The notes under the pieces were generated by a model. It was not told the origin of the DNA. It did not search any database and saw only the letters and a program-made list of their open reading frames with translations. DNA of 64,000 nucleotides, taken from positions 186,001 through 250,000 of the forward strand of contig JAIXMF010000022.1 of NCBI GenBank assembly GCA_025201365.1. The letters run 5' to 3'. The DNA is from Syncephalis plumigaleata (lineage: Eukaryota; Zoopagomycota; Zoopagomycetes; Zoopagales; Piptocephalidaceae). A program made the position numbers and the translations under genes. Shown here in pieces: positions 15,785-36,239 of this stretch. How positions within the stretch are numbered: position 1 is the stretch's first letter; the number at the start of each line of letters is the position of its first letter.

Positions 15785-16287
15785 CCTGTTGTTGTACCGA
15801 TGAACAGTGTAGTAGCTACCACATCATCCTCCTACATGTACACCAGTATTAGTTCGTATCTCATTTTCATATAAGTGTGTATGTGTGTAATTTGGCAATG
15901 TCCTTTTGTTGTCCTTACGTTTCCTCCTACCATTGCATTGCATTGCATTGACTTGTTTATCTGTCCGTTCGTTAGTTTGTCTGTTTCTGTACATTCACAG
16001 CAACCCATGCAAGTCGTATTAATTAAGCAATGGTGGCATCTTTATTCTTTTCCAAATGGTGTTTCGATTGTTCTTTGTCTATTAAATAATACTATTTCGT
16101 GTTTTATATCACATCATAAGTGTATCCATATGTGAATGGCAACGTATGATTAATGTTTGTTTATTCAATAAATGATTGAATGATGATCTTGTAGATATAT
16201 TTCTTGGTCTAAGGAATAATGACTTGAATGGCATGGACACTAAAGGGTCTTGCACCAATCCATTCTTGACTTGAATACCTATAATAT
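15785..16287. other. intergenic between convergent genes
   Basis: The 3' ends of the FKBP/TPR gene (+) and the single-codon-exon gene (-) face each other here. It contains a short tandem CATTG run near 15930-15950 and pyrimidine-rich sequence. From about 16154 it resembles the 3' region of the small secreted-peptide gene at 22.6 kb, with an AATAAA on the minus strand near 16165. No gene is seen. Confidence 0.55.
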
Positions 16288-16330
16288 CTACTTGATGATG
16301 TCCTTGTCTTGTCCTGTAATCATAATGGAT
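16154..16330 (-). repeat. 3'-end segment shared with 22605-22725
   Basis: The terminal exon and 3' flank of the single-codon-exon gene align with the 3' flank of the small secreted-peptide gene at 22.6 kb. Both have ACAAGACAAG-ACAT, then GTATTCAAGTCATTATTCCTT, then AAATATATCTACAAGATCAT, and then a tail ending in TTGAATAAA. The match is on the same strand and interrupted by a few indels. It indicates a duplicated or captured 3' end. Confidence 0.75.
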
Positions 16331-19300
16331 TAGTATGGGTATGATGATTGTGGATTGTTACTTACCGCTTGCTTTTCTTTGCTATTTAATCGATGTATAT
16401 CGCATTGTGATTAGATCGATGTATTAATGTTAACAACGCTAGCTTACATCCTAGTATCCATGATCATACGGGAGTTGTATGTTACACTATGATTAATGCT
16501 TCATGTCTACAAGCTGGCACGTTCAGCTTACAAGCTATCATGTGGCCATACGTTCATTATTTGTCATACTCCGATTAGTATACCGTAGATTGTAGTAGTG
16601 ACATCAACCTACATGTTGATTCGCTTCTTTCAACTAGGACACGCAACAGCGGTTTAGTTTTACAAGATGCTTGACCAAATCAAACAATAAAACTTACTTC
16701 TTTCTGTACATGATTATATGTAGATTGTACATTCCATTGTAATGAGTGCATGGTGCATCATTGTTCAAATACCAACTTACTTCCTATTATAATAATAATG
16801 ATACAAACACATATAGTATTATGATTAGTATACCGTAGATTATAACCAGAATGCTGGCTTACCCTCTGACATTTGTAGTTTTATGTGAATCATTCAATGG
16901 CATTACCATTAGCGTATCACATCTTGTAATCAGCATGTCAGCTTACCTCCTATTACATGTAATCATACACGAAACATAGAGCATTTTGCAATTAGTTCAT
17001 CCAGTATGAGTATCGAATAATAACTTGCCTCCTATCATTTGTAATCACATATGGATTGTATCCATGACGATTAATGTATCGCATACTGTAATGATAATGC
17101 TAGCTTACTATCTGTTATATGTGATCATACATCAATTGCATACCAGCCTACAATTAGTTCATCGTATGAAATGACCATTACTTTAGCTTACCCACTGATG
17201 CGCATAGGCGTAAGTGAATTGTATACCAATTACGATTAGCTCATCGTATACGGTAGTCATTATTTCGGCTTACTTTCTGTTACGTTCAAGTATAAGTAGT
17301 TGCATACCAATTTACAATTAGTTCATTGCGTGCCGCGACTGCTGTGCAAACTTACTCCCTGTTACATGTAACAATACACGAATTCCATACCAATTTACGA
17401 TTAGTTCAACGTACGCTGTAGTCGCTATTTTGACTTACTCTCTGTCACATTCAAGTATTAGTGAATTATGCACCAATTTATAATTAATTCAACGTATGTT
17501 GTAATCACTACTTTGGCTTACAAACTGATGCACATAAACTTGCAATTAGTTCAGCGTATGTTGTAATTGCTATTATGACTCACGAACTGATGTGCATAAG
17601 CGTAAGTGAGTTGCACACCCATTACGATTAGTTTGTCGTATGATGTAGCTGCTATTCTGACCTACCGGCTGATGTGCATAAGTGTAAGTGAGTCGTATAC
17701 CAATTACGATTAGTTCACCGTATGCAATAATTGATATGCAAACTTACTCTCTGTTACATGTAGTCATAAGTGAATTATTTACCCCTACAATTAGCACATG
17801 ACGTGCTATCATTATTATTATGACTCACGAACTGATGTGCGTAAGTGTAAGTGAATTTCATACCGATTACGATTAGTTCACCGTATGATGTAGCTGCTAT
17901 ATCAACTTACATCCTGTCATAAGTGAGCATAGGTGAATGGTATGCCGATTTATAATTAGTTCACTGTATGCTATAGTTGCTATATAAACTTACTGACTGA
18001 GACACATAAGCACAAGTAATTGCACACCAGTTTACGATTAGCCCGTTGTTTGCTGTAACCGCTCTTCTGACTTACCACCTGATATGCATAAGTATAAGTG
18101 AATTGTACAGCAATTACGATTAGTGCATCGTATACGGTAGCCACTGTTTTGGCTTACTTTCTGTTATGTGTAATGATAAATGGATTGCACATCGATTATG
18201 ATTAGTTTATTGTGTGCCGCGACTGCTGTACAAACTTACTCCCTGTTATACGTAATTATAAGTGAATTGTACACCAATTTACGATTAGCACACGACATGT
18301 TATAATTGATATGCAAACTTACGTTCTGTTATATGGGATCATAGATGAATTGCGCATCAATTACAATTAGTTCAGCGTATATTGTAATTGCTATTATGAC
18401 TCACGAACTGATGTGCATAAGCGTAGGTGAGTTGCACACCCATTACGATTAGTTTGTCGTATGATGTAGCTGCTATTCTGGCTTACTGCCTGATGCGCAT
18501 AAACGTAAATGAGTCGTATACCAATTTACAATTACTTTACCGTATGAAATAGTTATTATGTTAACTTACCTCCTTTTATATGTGATCATACATGAATTCC
18601 ACACCAGCTCACAATTAGTTCATTGTATGTTGTAATCGCTATTTTAACTTACTCTCTGTTACATGTAATAATAAATGGATTGCACACCAATTTGCTATTA
18701 GTTCATTGTATACCGTAGGCATTATATCCACTTACCCACTGCCATTCATAATCATACGTTAATTCCACATTACAATTAACGCATCACTCATTGTCATTAT
18801 AATAAAAACTTACTCCTCGCTGTACGTTTTCGTATGTGGATCACATGCCACACCCTAATTAGTGCACTGTCTATTGTCATTATAATGCTAGTTTACCTTC
18901 TGTTGTACGTGATAGTACATGGATTGTATTCCACACTCCAATTAATGTCTCGTATGCTTCAATCGAAATAATAACTTACGGCCTATTGTATTCCATAGTT
19001 ATAGGTGAGCTACATTTTGGGATTGTAGTCCACGTGTTAACTTACCGTCTATGTTGTGTGATCATCATACACACACACACGTATATGAATTGTATGTTGC
19101 ATTATGATTATTGTGATTATTATTGGAATGCTAGCTTACTTGCTTCTGCATGTGGTGTTACAAGTCAATCATGTATCATGCTACAATCAGCATACTGTAT
19201 CCTATAGTCATCATAATGACTTGCCTCCTATTATTCGTAATAATGAATAAATACTATGATTAGTATACCGTATACTGACACTAGCATGCCGACCTACAGT

Positions 19301-20497
19301 CTATGCCGTGTAATCATCCATCATGGACCATGTTCCTCATTTCGATTAACACATCACATATCACGATAAGAATGTCTAGTTACCCTCTGTTACATGGATG
19401 CATATGTGAATCACCAATCAATTTGTAATTAACCAATCGCACACTGCACTGATCATCACTTACATACTATTAGTCGTAATCATATGTGAATTGTATGCCA
19501 TAGGGTAATGAGTATATTGACTAGTATGACTGGAATGCTAACTTCTTACAATCTATTATGTATATGTGTGTGTGATGCATTGCTATTAACACGTTATGCA
19601 TTAATATGGAAATGTCCACTTACATACTAGTCCAATCATATGCGAAGAAAATGATGATGATTGTTGTTATTAGTGCATTATACGATGATGCTAGACAAGC
19701 AACTTACATCCTGTTACAGGTCATCGTACACGTATCATGACATGTCAACTTGTAATGAGCACATCATAGACTATGATTGAAATGATCACCTACATGCTAT
19801 CATATGTGTGTGTGGAATGACAAGTGAAGCAATTGTGCCATTGCAATTAGTATGACGTATACTGCAATCAGAATACCGCCCACTTACAATCTAGCACACA
19901 TCATCATCGGTCAATCGAATGCCACATTCCAACGAGTGCTCGCTTACCCACTAATACATGCAATCATACGTGAATCAAATGGCTCATTACAATGATACTA
20001 GTAGCTTACGTGTTCCTATGCATCATAATCATACGGGAATCGATTGCCACATTTCAATGAGTGTATGGCATAGTATTATCGTGATTCACAACTCACATCC
20101 TATCATACGAGTATTGCAATTAGTACGTTGTATGTTTATTTAGACAGAATATCAACTTACGGCTGCTTCTATAATAGGAACATATGATTTTGATTTACAT
20201 TCCAGTCAACACGACATATGCCATGATCACTCGTTGTTTAACTCACCAGCTATGATTGACAGCATCGTATGTGGCATCATCATCAGTATCGCAATCAATG
20301 TCATACGATATAGACTTACCATCTATTGATTGTCATTAGAAAGACCATTAGATAGTAGTATTACGATTAGCATGTTGACTAGTATCGATGATAATGATGA
20401 TGATGATATAAATACCAGGAGAATTTGATGATATGGATGCTGTAGCATTGACTATAGGCTGGCTAATATTGTTATTGTTATCAGCAGATGATTCCAT
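16288..20497 (-). CDS. gene of about 52 exons, 44 of them a single codon; 100-aa protein of unknown function
   Basis: Model, minus strand. Exon 1 is 20497-20416 (82 nt); the last is 16313-16288, ending TAG. Between them are 50 micro-exons, 44 of 3 nt. 3-nt exons, upper coordinate: 20322, 20249, 20099, 19950, 19890, 19796, 19710, 19626, 19552, 19466, 19386, 19300, 19227, 19142, 19048, 18982, 18899, 18738, 18655, 18572, 18489, 18407, 18325, 18242, 18160, 18078, 17996, 17913, 17831, 17750, 17668, 17586, 17524, 17441, 17358, 17276, 17194, 17111, 17031, 16949, 16865, 16783, 16534, 16450. Others: 20168-20161, 20015-20010, 18819-18814, 16703-16698, 16633-16613, 16381-16366. All are bounded by AG and GTAAG-type donors (GC after 19225 and 17029). 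The sum is 303 nt with no internal stop. The product has an Asn/Ser-rich start (MESSADNNNN), a Trp/Arg/Phe-rich middle (GWREAFNGKV, FRPFFRGKW) and a charged C-terminus (IEEREKELKEANQ). No signal peptide; family not recognised. Exons at 19142, 16534 and 16381 have alternative sites. Confidence 0.72.
16366..20415 (-). repeat. array of about 50 related introns, period about 82 nt
   Basis: Each unit on the minus strand starts with GTAAGT-like sequence, carries a recurrent core close to GAACTAATTGTAA followed by ATTGGTRTRCAATT, and ends near TACATGTAACAG. From 16.4 to 19.0 kb the spacing is 81-83 nt almost throughout; from 19.0 to 20.4 kb it varies between about 60 and 96 and the units are more diverged. 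Within a unit the flanks are related across the array, but the three exonic nucleotides are not, which is the opposite of what a neutral satellite would show. Blocks are duplicated: about 17552-17657 and 18370-18478 are nearly identical, and a third relative lies near 17820-17905. Confidence 0.85.
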
Positions 20498-21171
20498 GTT
20501 GATATTGTCCTAATGGAAGAGCAAGAGAAACAAACAAACGAAATGGAGTAATGAGTATAGAATAGAATAAAAAGAGGGATGTGATCAAACAGTATGATAG
20601 TTCTAGGGAAGTAGTGCAGGCACCTTTGATTAATTTAAATGACACCGCATTGACACCTTGCCACTACTGCATTTCTTTACCGTGTTTCTTCTTCGTGTTC
20701 TTTTTCGTGTTTCTGTACGTTTTCTATGCATATACATATTCAGTTTGCGTTGTATTCCTTTGTGCCTTCTACACTTTTGTACTCCCACTAGCTTACGATA
20801 GTAATTACTCATAGCATATATTCTACTCTACTCTGCATAGTTATCCATACTATTGTGTACACTTTTACTGCTTGTAAACTACGATTACTGCAGAGAAACA
20901 CTTTCTTCCGTAGCACTTGATCTTGCCACGATCTACTCCTGTCTAACTAGTTTAGTCGCTATTTCTTTCTATACAACAAAGTCGCACACCCTGCTGTACT
21001 CATTGCCGTTGTATTTATCGTATTTCTCCTACAAGTACACGCTATTTTTATTCGTTTATCTCGTCATAGTCATAGTAAGTGCTTTTACCTTTCATCGTGC
21101 TAATAACCGTTATAGCAAGTATACTAACGACTATATGCTATGTTGTAGGTATAGTTACATTTCTCGTAATC
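20498..21171. other. divergent promoter region
   Basis: Lies between the minus-strand exon 1 starting at 20497 and the plus-strand gene at 21172. On the minus strand, the roughly 70 nt before 20497 are pyrimidine-rich and lack ATG, like other leaders here. On the plus strand a very good intron, donor at 21075 (ATA|GTAAGT) and acceptor ending about 21149 (TTGTAG), probably sits in the 5' leader of the next gene, because the frame it would join contains no ATG. The frames at 20581-20814 and 20853-21218 are not supported as genes. Confidence 0.45.
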
Positions 21172-22760: not shown

Positions 22761-22904
22761 CTATAAGTGGATCGCCGGCATTCTGTTAAGAGAATTATCA
22801 GCTTGAGAAGCACGACGATCCAGGGCGGGACCAGCTTCAACGGCGACCAGACTGGTGAGAGCGACAACGGCGACGGCAATAGCAATAACAGTAGAGAACT
22901 TCAT
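22761..22904 (-). CDS. small secreted peptide, 47 aa
   Basis: A single short frame, ATG at 22904 (context AGCATGA) to TAG at 22761-22763. The first 24 residues are a textbook signal peptide: MKFST, then an alternating Ile/Ala/Val core, ending VAVEA. The remaining 23 residues (from GPALDRRASQ) contain a dibasic RR that could be a Kex2-type cleavage site and no cysteines. Codons are strongly C-ending and GC-rich compared with neighbours, a sign of high expression. It could be a processed signalling peptide, an effector, or the first exon of something longer, although I found no good downstream splice. Its 3' flank is shared with the gene ending at 16288. Confidence 0.6.
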   Translation of the reverse strand: MKFSTVIAIAVAVVALTSLVAVEAGPALDRRASQADNSLNRMPAIHL

Positions 22905-32850: not shown

Positions 32851-34334
32851 GGGCTCTTACTATCAGTTAACCTTCGGTATGATTGCATCTCCCATTACGA
32901 GATCCTTACGGTAATTGCAATGAAGACAACGATTGATGGTACGTATCGTACTGTCTATTCATATTCATTGTGCCACCATGGAATACGTTGAATGTCCTTC
33001 GGGAAAAGCTATGCAAAATACCGTAATCATGCTAATTCGTTTGTAGCTTGACGGGTGACGTGCGCTATTCAACAAGCTGCTACTCGTATACCATACAAAT
33101 ACTGCATGCTAACAATTTGCGGGCGGATTATCTAATGGCCGCTAACTACCGTTTAATGACCTGTTAATAATGTAGCAATTTCAAATACTAATACTAATAT
33201 TAATAATGACGAATACGTTGCCGAATGCGGCTAATGCCTGCTTGTAGGGTGGCGAGAATCTACCAAACATTAGTCGATAGAATAATAATCCATCATAGCA
33301 ATGTCTTAAGGTAATATAAATGCCAGTATAATCATCGGTTAATTAGTAGCCCTGATAAACGTAGTAAGCTATACACATGTAGTCTATTAATAAGGTTTTT
33401 TTTCCTACTATAGTGAGCTAATGGCTTATCGGCCACTTCAGCAGATATCATTGATTAGCAACATCACCTATTAATAAAACGGTTTGCTTACGTGCGGCAC
33501 TTGTTATTGTTACGTTCAAGCCATTGGTGCAAGTGAAATTAGTAGCACATTAGCACGCTCAACATCCACCTGTAACCGATATGCACGATAGTGTTGTAAT
33601 ATTATAAGGCGCACTAATAGACTAAGCAAGCTGGAAGGAAGTTACAAACAGCTAATTGCTTTTCATATCACTTCATTGTTATTGTAAGTTGTGGTATATA
33701 TAATAGGTTAAATCATCCTAAGCAATCAATAAATGAATAAACAATTTTATTAACGAGTATACTATTGGCATTTATACGGCCTATCAATGCCGCGCTTAAG
33801 TAATAATACGGTAAACATGAGCAGCAGTAGCAGCAGTAGCAGTAGCTAGTGAATAGAGTGAATACCGCGTATACATCACTTACCGTGTAGATTACAAATA
33901 AACAATAGAGATACGAGTGTATGAATAGAGTAATGGACGAGTAAGCGAACGAGTTATCAGTACAAGCAACAAGCAGTGCTATCAATGAACTATTGAGAAG
34001 CAGTGTTCGTTGTGAGTGATATTAACCAAACAATATGCTTTAGCAAGTGGCATACTGCCGGGAGAAGCTATAGCAGTATATTCCTGGTCGACTAACCTGC
34101 ATGTATGCATATAAAGCTACTCTTAGTAGTCAATACAGACTGATGACGATACGCATACAAACTGGTAAGCAAACAGTGTGAGCATCCCATAGGAGCATAC
34201 AGTGATAGAATACGGGTAAATGGTACGGATCTGACGAGAGTGCAGTATCGTAGTTTGATAAACAAGGGAGAGGGTCAACAAGTAGCAGTAGTATCGTGCA
34301 CAGGTACAAGCACCAGACTAGAATACAAATAAGT

Positions 34335-34640
34335 AGTGTAGCCTTATCGTGTACGAGTGCTATAGAGTGGAGGACAAACACAGCGGAATAAAGTGCGTAT
34401 AACGTGTAATTGCAGTGGTTGTCCGTAGAAAAGCACTACAAGCTGCAAATAAGTAAAGGCAATAGAGAAACGAATAGAACGCGTAAACGTATGACGTGAC
34501 GTTGACCTATTGCTAGAGCAGCAGCAGCAACAATAGGAATAGGAATATACGAATAGTGAAGGTGACCGAGAACAACAAACGAGTAATGAGAAGAGGAGTA
34601 CAGGTATGGGAGTGTATTCAGGTAAGAGACGTGTAGTGTT
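34335..34640 (+). repeat. diverged direct repeat, copy 1
   Basis: Resembles 37950-38260 in the same orientation. Shared anchors are TCGTG-AC-AGTGCTA, GCGGAATAAAGTG / GCAGAATAAAGTG, and CGTAGAAAAGCAC-ACAA followed by CAAATAAGTAA / CAAAGAGGTAA. Spacing is conserved over at least 150 bp and then fades. The repeat lies inside the inverted-repeat block. Confidence 0.6.
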
Positions 34641-35900
34641 AGCGTAGCGAGGAGCAGATGGAGAGTGGCTAACGGGGAAAGACGGGTAGAGGTGGAAGAG
34701 TAAGCAAAGAATCAAGGGAAGCAGGAATGATGATTGGCAGATCAAATAGTGAGAGGAATAAAGAAGTAACGCGTAAACAAAGCAAGTGTGTTCACAAGTG
34801 CACTAGTGAGTATATCCACCTCCTACGAGTGTCACGGTGATAACTACGCGGTAACGAGTGAGCGAGGAGATCGAGCAGGAAACAAGTATAGTGAATAAGA
34901 GGAATAAATAAAGCGCGCAACGAACTAAATCGTGCAAGAGGAGTGAGCTTAAGCGAAAGAAGTGAGTAAAAGGACAAGATCGAGCGAGAGGAATGAGTGA
35001 AGCGCACGAGAAACGAGCATAGTGGGTAGATTGTATAGGGAAGCGAGTAGAACACGAGAGAAAGGAGAGTAAAGCGCGCAACGAGCGAGTAGGTTGAGCG
35101 GGAACGTGTAGATGAGCAAAAGGAACGGGATCAAGCGGAAGGAGTGAGTAGTATGACAGAACGCGCGTGTAATGAGTAGATCGTGCAAGAGAAACGAGAT
35201 CGAGCGAGAAGAATAGTTGCTGTAGTAGTGTGGTTAGTTAATAGTAACGAATGCATACACGTATAATAAAAGAATATATGTGAACGTTAATTAGTTCGTA
35301 TGCAATAGAAAGCGTTTGAATGTAATGAGTATAGCACACGACGAATGAATAGAAGTGCAAGAGAAGTGAGTAGAACGCGCGACGAACGTAAGAGTGATTA
35401 GTAGAACGGACGAGGAAGTGAGTGAAGGAGTAGAACGCGCGAGGAGTGAGTATAGTGACAAGATCGAGCGAGAAACAAGTAGAATAAGCGAGGAACGTAA
35501 GACGAATGCGTGAGTGTAATGAGTATAGTGAGTAGATCCGAGCGAGAGGAGTGAGTGTATGAGTAGAACACACAAGTAATGAATAGAACGAGTAAGAAAG
35601 AGTAAAGCACGCCGCGAACGAGTAGATCGAGCAAGAGGAGTGGATATAGTGACGAGATGAGCGAGATGAGTGAGTATAGTAAGTATAAAGAACAAGATGG
35701 AGTGAGAGAGTGAGTAGAACGCACGATGAAAGAATAGAACGTGAGAGGAAGGAGTATAGTGACAAGATTATGCAAGGAATGAGTAGAACGAGCGAGTGAG
35801 TGAATGAGAGTAATGAATATAACATGCGAGGAAGGAGCGGGATTAGTAAAGAAATGAGTATAGCAACATTGAATGAATGCAATAATGTATAATAAATCGA
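34640..35900 (+). repeat. GA-rich degenerate tandem repeat
   Basis: More than 1 kb built from variants of GAGTAGAACGCGCGAGGAA and GAGTATAGTGACAAGATCGAGCGAG. Units are irregular, so no single period stands out by eye. The strand bias (purines on plus) leaves long open frames on the minus strand that read as Leu/Ser/Tyr-rich hydrophobic nonsense; these are by-products, not genes. Confidence 0.7.
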
Positions 35901-36239
35901 GTAACAAAGCTACAGCATGGTAATGGAGAACATGGTGGTATTTATTAAAACATATAGGAAGCATACTAGAGGAGGTAGCGACATGGGAGTCATGTGTATA
36001 GTGAACATGTCAATTACACTCGCCATTTTTCATGACATGGGTAATGAAGCGAGAACACTACAAGTGCATTCATGCAATCATATTGAAATGAGGAACATGC
36101 TGGTATGTGTTGTATTATTATTGAAGGGATATAGAAGGAGGTATAGTCATGAAGGCCAGAGTGTATGGTCATCGTCATGCATATGTCTCAGTATTGAAAC
36201 AATAATGAATGTTGACATGATCACCATGGCTATACCTAT

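Follow-up and report, generated by a model that had tools for sequence, protein, structure and literature searches.

Introduction

Isolated 3-nucleotide (nt) micro-exons are spliced in animals and plants, where each lies singly between normal exons. Here, we describe a 64,000-nt stretch of the genome of the mycoparasite Syncephalis plumigaleata (Zoopagales), contig JAIXMF010000022.1, positions 186,001 to 250,000 (hereafter, the window). Judging from its sequence, the minus strand at 20497-16288 very probably holds a real protein-coding gene that devotes a separate exon to nearly every codon. Unlike the single micro-exons of animals and plants, the 3-nt exons of this gene and its relatives stand dozens in a row, in what we call arrays.

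The closest described systems are the micro-exon genes (MEGs) of Schistosoma, the bicycle genes of aphids, and introners. MEGs are described (PMC10526429) as having 10-20 short exons of 6-81 bp (3-81 in the abstract), mostly of 15 bp, with intervening introns that reach almost 5 kb, and as encoding secreted proteins. The S. plumigaleata genes resemble the MEGs in having numerous very short exons, most of them divisible by three in length, and in forming a family with variable products. Unlike MEGs, they have 33-63 exons of exactly 3 nt per parsed gene (n=17), separated by introns of about 80 nt that belong to one family. Also unlike MEGs, the window gene has no signal peptide visible by eye in its product, which starts with MESSADNNNNISQPIVN, while the array genes L041, L042, L052, and L053 have a signal-peptide-like start.

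According to PMC9168663, aphid bicycle genes have ~17 exons on average, the internal ones nearly all in phase 2, and the aphid megacycle gene has >100 micro-exons for ~2000 amino acids (aa). The likeness lies in effector-like families, many micro-exons, and fast evolution; unlike in the megacycle gene, each exon in the S. plumigaleata arrays holds one codon. Introners, or introner-like elements, are related introns spread as one family across many genes of a genome (PMC9860276 and PMC4457414). Array introns at many loci likewise form one sequence family, as seen in an alignment of 65 units and 446 matches to a unit pattern, but they lie only 3 nt from one another, within certain gene families.

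A profile search of 5.8 billion proteins, which requires shared 5-residue words and may therefore miss distant kinship, returned eight matches, all named S. plumigaleata, and none that indicated homology to schistosome MEGs. Relatives from other species were not found among public proteins (13 matches, 12 of them named S. plumigaleata) in searches with this requirement. Open PubMed Central titles and abstract starts, a set that mostly leaves out subscription papers, contained no report of single-codon exon arrays or of such Syncephalis genes, and a term search of the main text of PMC9860276 found no mention of Syncephalis, Zoopag-, microexon, or tandem. Micro-exon genes are known, and the S. 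plumigaleata arrays are more extreme than any that we found described.

Gene structure

The rebuilt model of the window gene comprises 52 exons and 51 introns of 52-93 nt. Its coding sequence of 303 nt specifies 100 aa followed by TAG, with the product MESSADNNNNISQPIVNATASISSNSPDAEAADEHWIHDYIYRTEQTAKRGWREAFNGKVSDFRPFFRGKWIEEREKELKEANQHLDQRKASGQDKDIIK*. Forty-four exons are 3 nt long, three are 6 nt, and one each is 8, 16, and 21 nt; the first exon has 82 nt and the last 26 nt. Among the 50 internal exons, 48 have a length divisible by three. An earlier reading of this DNA from the sequence alone (the original prediction) had claimed about 51 introns in 100 codons, 44 exons of 3 nt, others of 6, 6, 6, 8, 16, and 21 nt plus two end exons, and a 303-nt frame closed by TAG, and the rebuilt model returns the same counts and lengths. 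Three exons, namely exon 1, the 16-nt exon, and the last, were placed manually to follow the original prediction. A parser blind to reading frame recovered 48 of the 51 introns at identical positions; it chose other acceptors for the last two introns and missed intron 1, which has the atypical donor GTATTT.

All 51 introns end in AG, and 49 begin with GT and two with GC. Most donors are GTAAGT (23) or GTAAGC (13), followed by GTGAGT (5), GTAGGT (4), GCAAGT (2), and one each of GTATTT, GTAAGA, GTAACT, and GTAAAC. Over 793 units of 17 loci, 345 donors are GTAAGT and 191 are GTAAGC. As noted in the original prediction, both GC donors of the window gene are preceded by a GAG exon, and this extends to the parsed copies: 37 of 40 GC donors in 17 copies follow GAG or AAG, with two of the others after GAT and one a misparse, although many of the 40 are the same position recurring in different copies.

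The gene begins with an 82-nt exon (20416-20497) that is of length 3n+1 and encodes an Asn-rich N-terminus. A 5' flank common to the copies, from CTCTTTTTATTCTATTC... to ...CAATATCAAC ahead of the ATG, precedes it at 20498-20576 and probably contains the transcription start, because different upstream sequences join onto it. The conserved N-terminal part of the array, exons 2-19 (18980-20322), reads ATG CTG AAGCAGCC GAT GAACAC TGG ATT CAT GAT TAT ATT TAT AGG ACT GAG CAA ACG GCC; it is in phase 1 up to the 8-nt exon and in phase 0 afterwards. The hypervariable middle (exons 20-47; 16698-18899) has a period of mostly 82-83 nt and contains block duplications. Downstream are a 21-nt exon, TTGAAAGAAGCGAATCAACAT (LKEANQH; 16613-16633), the exons CTT and GAT with the 16-nt exon (16366-16534), and the last exon (16288-16313), ending in QDKDIIK-TAG. 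The 3' flank or untranslated region (UTR) occupies 16140-16287, with AATAAA at about 16165-16160.

Such an array could be expressed if the spliceosome removes each intron as a short, intron-defined unit and joins the 3-nt exons into the 303-nt frame, and we infer that this splicing takes place in vivo. Each short intron carries common splice signals, in most cases a GTAAGY donor, a CTAAT branch-point-like motif, and a YAG acceptor. The donors depend mainly on intron positions +1 to +6, which may replace the missing exon context, and GC donors mostly retain an AG before them.

To judge chance, we ran the parser on altered versions of the gene segment, using splice weights and a unit model trained on arrays that include the window array and so not blind to it. 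The segment itself scored 1110 with 50 introns. Fifty dinucleotide shuffles gave a median score of 18 with two introns, the five best scoring 22-33 with two or three; the reversed segment gave two introns (score 27) and the other strand one (score 24). The rest of the window yielded one other chain of at least four introns, with five introns and a score of 27. All 45 matches to the unit sequence model in the window, at E up to 0.1, lie within 16395-20161 on the minus strand. A comparison of the splice signals with those of ordinary introns in other window genes is circular, its candidates being chosen by array-trained weights and judged by eye. Structured RNA and transfer RNA (tRNA) were rejected as content of the window, which had no Rfam match at the gathering score and no tRNA in a search run with a bacterial code setting.

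Copies of the gene in the genome

Searching the 32.6-Mb assembly (383 contigs) with the N-terminal 1.56 kb of the gene revealed 28 copies, some of which may be haplotype or assembly duplicates. Twenty-seven are near-complete, including the window's own and one interrupted by a contig end, and one is split in two (G000 C318:149336-155868, the parts ~5 kb apart). They are 89-100% identical to the query, introns included. All 17 copies that were parsed contain arrays, in chains of 39-74 introns with 33-63 exons of 3 nt, counted in stretches some of which stop inside the gene. The 5'-end triplets are nearly identical across these copies (TGG ATT CAT GAT TAT ATT TAT AGG ACT/ATT GAG), with intron lengths that vary, while the middle differs from copy to copy. 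Long-form copies have an additional common triplet block at the 3' end.

Exon 1 has the length 3n+1 in 11 of the 13 copies in which it is readable, and the frame is open to a terminal stop or to the end of the parse in nine of 17 joined parses (window, L009, L012, L013, L015, L016, L018, L033, and L034). In eight other short-form copies (L009, L012, L013, L017-L020, and L033), the exon matching the window's 16-nt exon ends the frame, as NNN TAA GCA or GAA GAT TAA GCA. The 3' end is also conserved: a 251-nt query (16150-16400) had matches at all 40 scored places, out of 217 candidates, and the 3' flanks of the copies diverge shortly past AATAAA. The window gene is one of these 28 copies, which have conserved ends and a hypervariable middle, and it belongs to a larger set of array genes, several with a signal-peptide-like start.

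Two side observations concern the 5' ends. Upstream of CTCTTTTTATTCTATTC, several promoter-side types meet one gene start in L009-L021 and the window: one in the window gene, L009, L015, L016, and L020, another in L011-L014, L018, L019, and L021, and a separate one in L017. The two exceptions to the 3n+1 length of exon 1, L011 and L019, have single-base indels relative to sister copies, reflecting sequencing error or decay.

Intronless paralogues

The N-terminal query also gave six weaker matches, which cover only the 5' UTR and exon 1, and three further short matches that fall elsewhere in the query or beside a copy. At five of the six weaker-match loci, which were read, an open reading frame (ORF) follows directly with no array, and these encode four distinct proteins; the sixth, C223:1257136, is known only as a protein match. 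All five intronless loci read uninterrupted through W[IV]Q[DN]YIV[RK], the counterpart of the window's N-terminal array triplets.

The two identical proteins of L029 and L030, ...AEQPWIQDYIVRVRKKSAK...ELQAANQHLDLFGAAAFEKRQKDRSVRRRIMKFFHIEE*, match the long array form to its end (ANQHLDLFGA.AFEK.QKD...RR.I.KF). The joined triplets of one long array, L016, read ...EEHWIHDYIYRIEKDSA...LEKANQHLDLFGTIAFEKKQKDNKGSIRRKIKKF; the 8-nt exon of the long form shifts the frame such that the joined codons match the intronless protein to the end. A naive reading of the long-form C-terminus as EHKEKDQEIL is rejected, because the phase shift made by the 8-nt exon AATAAAGG gives SIRRKIKKF instead, in agreement with the intronless ORF. 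Followed by hand in the alignment, L011 and L016 extend the match through their last short exon to a stop codon that the last intron divides (TG|A); in L010, L014, and L021, a TAA lies just ahead of that point. The window's 21-nt exon, LKEANQH, has the counterparts LQAANQH in L029/L030 and LKLANQH in L028. L026, L027, and L028 share the N-terminal segment and have shorter or diverged C-terminal parts, L027 stopping ahead of its ANQH.

The match depends on the order of the triplets. When the order of 3-nt exons, exon 1 excluded, was shuffled 2000 times for each of eight of the 17 loci against three intronless proteins, the observed score was reached by none of the shuffles in 18 of 24 tests and by 1-8 in the other six. 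For the window gene, no shuffle reached it against any of the three proteins, with a small margin for L029 (73 versus 69 for the best shuffle). Short of RNA, the agreement between the joined triplets and the intronless proteins is the strongest support for reading the triplets as exons.

The N-terminal tree places 12 array copies and five intronless members on either side of one separating branch (100/99), based on 50 columns and a bootstrap that had not settled. Leaving aside the identical pair, the intronless members are more diverse (0.44-0.58) than the arrays (mean 0.80). Pfam, searched at E up to 1, gave no family for L029 and four matches for L028, all below their cut-offs. The stretch downstream of the L026 ORF resembles a tRNA gene by eye only, and one NCBI model, P0001 (BDF22DRAFT_742100), appears to fuse the intronless L030 with a signal-peptide exon of the next gene.

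Evolution of the triplets

Stops are nearly absent from the triplets. In the window family, one of 303 non-redundant triplets is a stop, versus 18.4 expected from column composition, and this one is a misparse of the exon CGAAGA. In seven other arrays, 0 of 228 triplets are stops versus 5.3 expected.

We also compared rates of change between like units at different loci, by region, over 793 units of 17 loci. In the middle, triplets differ per site 2.3, 2.6, 3.1, and 3.1 times as much as introns at intron identities of 0.94-0.97, 0.90-0.94, 0.85-0.90, and 0.80-0.85, respectively. Over the five bins summed, the differing pairs of middle triplets comprise 584 non-synonymous and 16 synonymous ones, with the slowest change at codon position 3. 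The C-terminal block gave triplet-to-intron ratios of 0.62, 0.94, 0.33, and 0.43. These ratios indicate different modes of evolution in the middle and the C-terminal block, with the middle resembling a protein region that is under pressure to change. The original prediction had described diverse triplets between related flanks; this holds for the variable middle but not for the C-terminal block. Together with the shuffles, the stop deficit and the codon-position rates led us to reject chance or a satellite as the origin of the array.

Annotated gene models and points against a coding array

Some NCBI gene models spell array triplets independently of our parser. All 92 residues of BDF22DRAFT_685685 are spelled by 42 exons (39 of 3 nt), as are 79 of the 82 residues of the partial model BDF22DRAFT_685769 by 40 exons (37 of 3 nt), all 130 of BDF22DRAFT_655023 by 44 exons (29 of 3 nt), and all 113 of BDF22DRAFT_657508 by 32 pieces (21 of 3 nt) with a retained intron. 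The window gene itself appears to be represented by BDF22DRAFT_658225 (P0013), whose sequence closes with DQRKASGQDKDIIK and of which 18 pieces, as far as position 18158, fall on exons of the rebuilt gene. The placement of this model covers 126 of its 143 residues and is unreliable at its end; for P0007, 77 of 105 residues could be placed on the genome. The eight models of the window family look like ab initio predictions and not transcripts, because they are noisy, with codons omitted and intron pieces kept, and we did not accept them as proof of transcription.

Several observations weigh against the interpretation of the array as a coding gene. All eight NCBI models of the window family lack two codons, the one that follows WI and the one for R that follows IY; P0006, P0007, P0010, P0012, and P0013 also lack the next two, and five of the eight keep a piece of intron 1. 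Eight of the 17 joined automatic parses contain internal stops, and some of these copies may be dead, although some of the stops stem from a visible misparse (L021) or single-base indels (L011 and L019). The array L041 has a 2-nt exon or one lost base, through sequencing error or decay. In the rate comparison, whose pairs share ancestry, are not independent, and serve as descriptions and not tests, the middle ratio is 1.0 in the most similar bin (identity 0.97-1.01, 63 pairs), one C-terminal bin of 6 pairs has a ratio of 1.61, and N-terminal triplets are not slower than introns (2.36, 1.78, 1.11, and 0.96). Finally, the array units are tandem and related.

A rival reading makes the array a satellite-like repeat or a dead gene with splice-like motifs, unexpressed beside working intronless paralogues. 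The tandem, related units and the internal stops in eight of 17 parses, some through single-base damage (L011 and L019), are as such a repeat would have them, but a satellite or dead gene fits poorly with triplets nearly free of stops, with a middle whose mostly non-synonymous changes depend on codon position, and with a conserved C-terminal block. Nor does it account for conserved 5' and 3' gene ends, for an exon 1 of length 3n+1 in 11 of 13 copies, or for the recurrence of the array design in genes for other proteins. We therefore regard it as very improbable. The original prediction of a gene built from single-codon exons is supported by the paralogous arrays, the intronless paralogues, the stop deficit, and the codon-position-dependent evolution, and no alternative that we found explains the arrays, the uninterrupted reading of the intronless loci, and the latter two together.

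The omitted codons bear on a further possibility, that the array is spliced into a mixture, units with weak donors (GTAGGT, GTAACT, and GCAAGT) being often skipped and each gene giving many in-frame peptides. In the window gene, the four omitted codons have the donors GTAGGT, GTAACT, GTAGGT, and GCAAGT, and only two internal exons have a length not divisible by three, such that skipping of the other units would keep the frame. The models omit such units, along with two that have consensus donors (CCT in L052 and TGT in L053). However, the omissions are alike across models, as expected of a gene finder with a narrow donor model, and the intronless paralogues retain the omitted positions. A mixture of this kind is fairly unlikely.

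Origin of the introns

Sixty-five units were sampled from eleven arrays, each with a well-scoring intron of 74-86 nt. They align from end to end (nnnGTAAGTTATCATTnTGATTGTAATnnATGAnGTACTAATTATAATATGGCACACGATnCACnTATGTTTnTGTATGATAG) with a mean column identity of 54%, and a stricter unit pattern has 446 matches in the genome versus none in a reversed control. All similarity signals among introns are modest, given a shuffled baseline of 0.63.

One quite possible origin, if short of probable, is mass intron gain, in which introner-like copies inserted between the codons of an intronless gene, perhaps 3 nt measured from an existing junction. The sampled introns form one family across genes, and those of five signal-peptide arrays are equally alike between and within genes (0.70-0.72). 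The single split between arrays and intronless members, the greater diversity of the latter, and a similarity that is nearly flat with distance along the arrays also fit insertion. Insertion, however, does not require multiples of three, which 48 of 50 internal exons are. The middle introns of the window gene are closer to each other (0.69) than to other arrays (0.65), and neighboring introns are slightly more alike than chance in three of seven arrays (p 0.01-0.04; differences up to 0.013). In addition, the unit model scan found no unit-family intron outside the array in the window, and an inspection of the unit alignment by eye, with no dedicated test, showed neither target-site duplications nor terminal repeats.

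Alternatively, the unit of 3-nt exon plus intron may have been duplicated, singly or in blocks, with intronless genes losing their introns later, e.g., via complementary DNA; this, too, is a reasonable if uncertain account. Multiples of three would follow automatically, in every phase, and exon phases are 1 at the start, 0 in the body, and 2 at the end of the long form. Blocks are visible in the window gene: numbering introns from 0 (the one following exon 2), introns 22-24 and 32-34 are 83, 96, and 80% alike, and introns 26-27 and 37-38 are 80 and 84% alike. L052 and L053 also have runs of like introns in common. The near-flat similarity along the arrays, in turn, stands against duplication and does not support recent local tandem expansion as the sole source of units. 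The tree, with its one array/intronless split, does not support repeated retroposition in the window-gene branch, and inspection of the intronless copies by eye revealed neither a poly(A) tract nor a target-site duplication, though this says little about old events. Insertion and duplication each have evidence in their favor and are about equally likely.

Other array genes and the signal-peptide branch

The unit pattern search found clusters beyond the window family. Seven loci encoding other proteins (L041, L042, L043, L044, L052, which includes L045, L053, and L054) read as arrays with 19-43 exons of exactly 3 nt each, in steps of ~80 nt. These further genes, and the membership of array introns in one repeated family, lay beyond what the original prediction could see. 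Exon 1 is signal-peptide-like (MKFSA...) wherever the 5' end was read, i.e., in L041, which starts MKFSAVIAIAAAVVALTSLVAVEA, L042, L052, and L053. A Cys-Cys pair occurs in four products (L041, L042, L044, and L053), and these genes look like distant members of one family, because the introns beside the pair are 86-94% alike among them. The window gene resembles some of these loci at its 3' end: its last intron and those of L041, L044, and L054 are 87-93% alike, and its last exon has a similar counterpart in L041, L043, and L044.

The signal-peptide exon itself had matches at all 150 scored places, out of 169 candidates, and some of these precede long open frames. L058 and L059 resemble intronless members of this branch, and in L055 and L057, the signal-peptide start passes directly into 3'-end sequence. 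The window contains one such mini-gene adjoining the array gene (22761-22904, minus strand; translated by eye), which encodes 47 aa with a signal peptide, MKFSTVIAIAVAVVALTSLVAVEAGPALDRRASQADNSLNRMPAIHL*, has neither intron nor array, and shares a similar 3' UTR with array genes. Elsewhere in the window, 34000-36000 has a strong purine skew (GC skew 0.41, AT skew 0.33), and imperfect 29-31-nt repeats lie near 35363-35451.

Significance

The gain, loss, exchange, or splicing skip of a one-codon unit would keep the reading frame. The middle of the gene could then change one codon at a time between constant ends, and the array design is presumably kept because its unit is frame-neutral. The rapid change of the middle, the relatives with signal peptides, and the lifestyle of S. 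plumigaleata lead us to infer that the products work where it meets its host fungus. Extending this to the whole genome is more speculative: that the arrays are a host-facing gene class in which self-spreading introns, advancing in 3-nt steps, make codons movable, frame-neutral cassettes, with single-codon exon shuffling around fixed cysteines and ends, is a tentative and somewhat doubtful proposal. In this view, new proteins would come from the addition, removal, exchange, and rapid mutation of one-codon units, and perhaps from their omission in splicing.

For annotation, the consequence is direct, as standard methods break such genes: eight of eight retrieved models lack codons of the conserved WIHDYIYR. 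If the arrays are spliced as read, ~40-75 introns would be joined in order around mostly 3-nt exons in many genes of S. plumigaleata, a harder task for the spliceosome than in any gene that we found described. They would then offer a direct way to learn how the splicing machinery recognizes exons that are too short for exon definition, how intron families spread, and whether recombination between introns can diversify a gene by single codons. If the unit-by-unit mechanism is true, the architecture would merit rank as a new kind.

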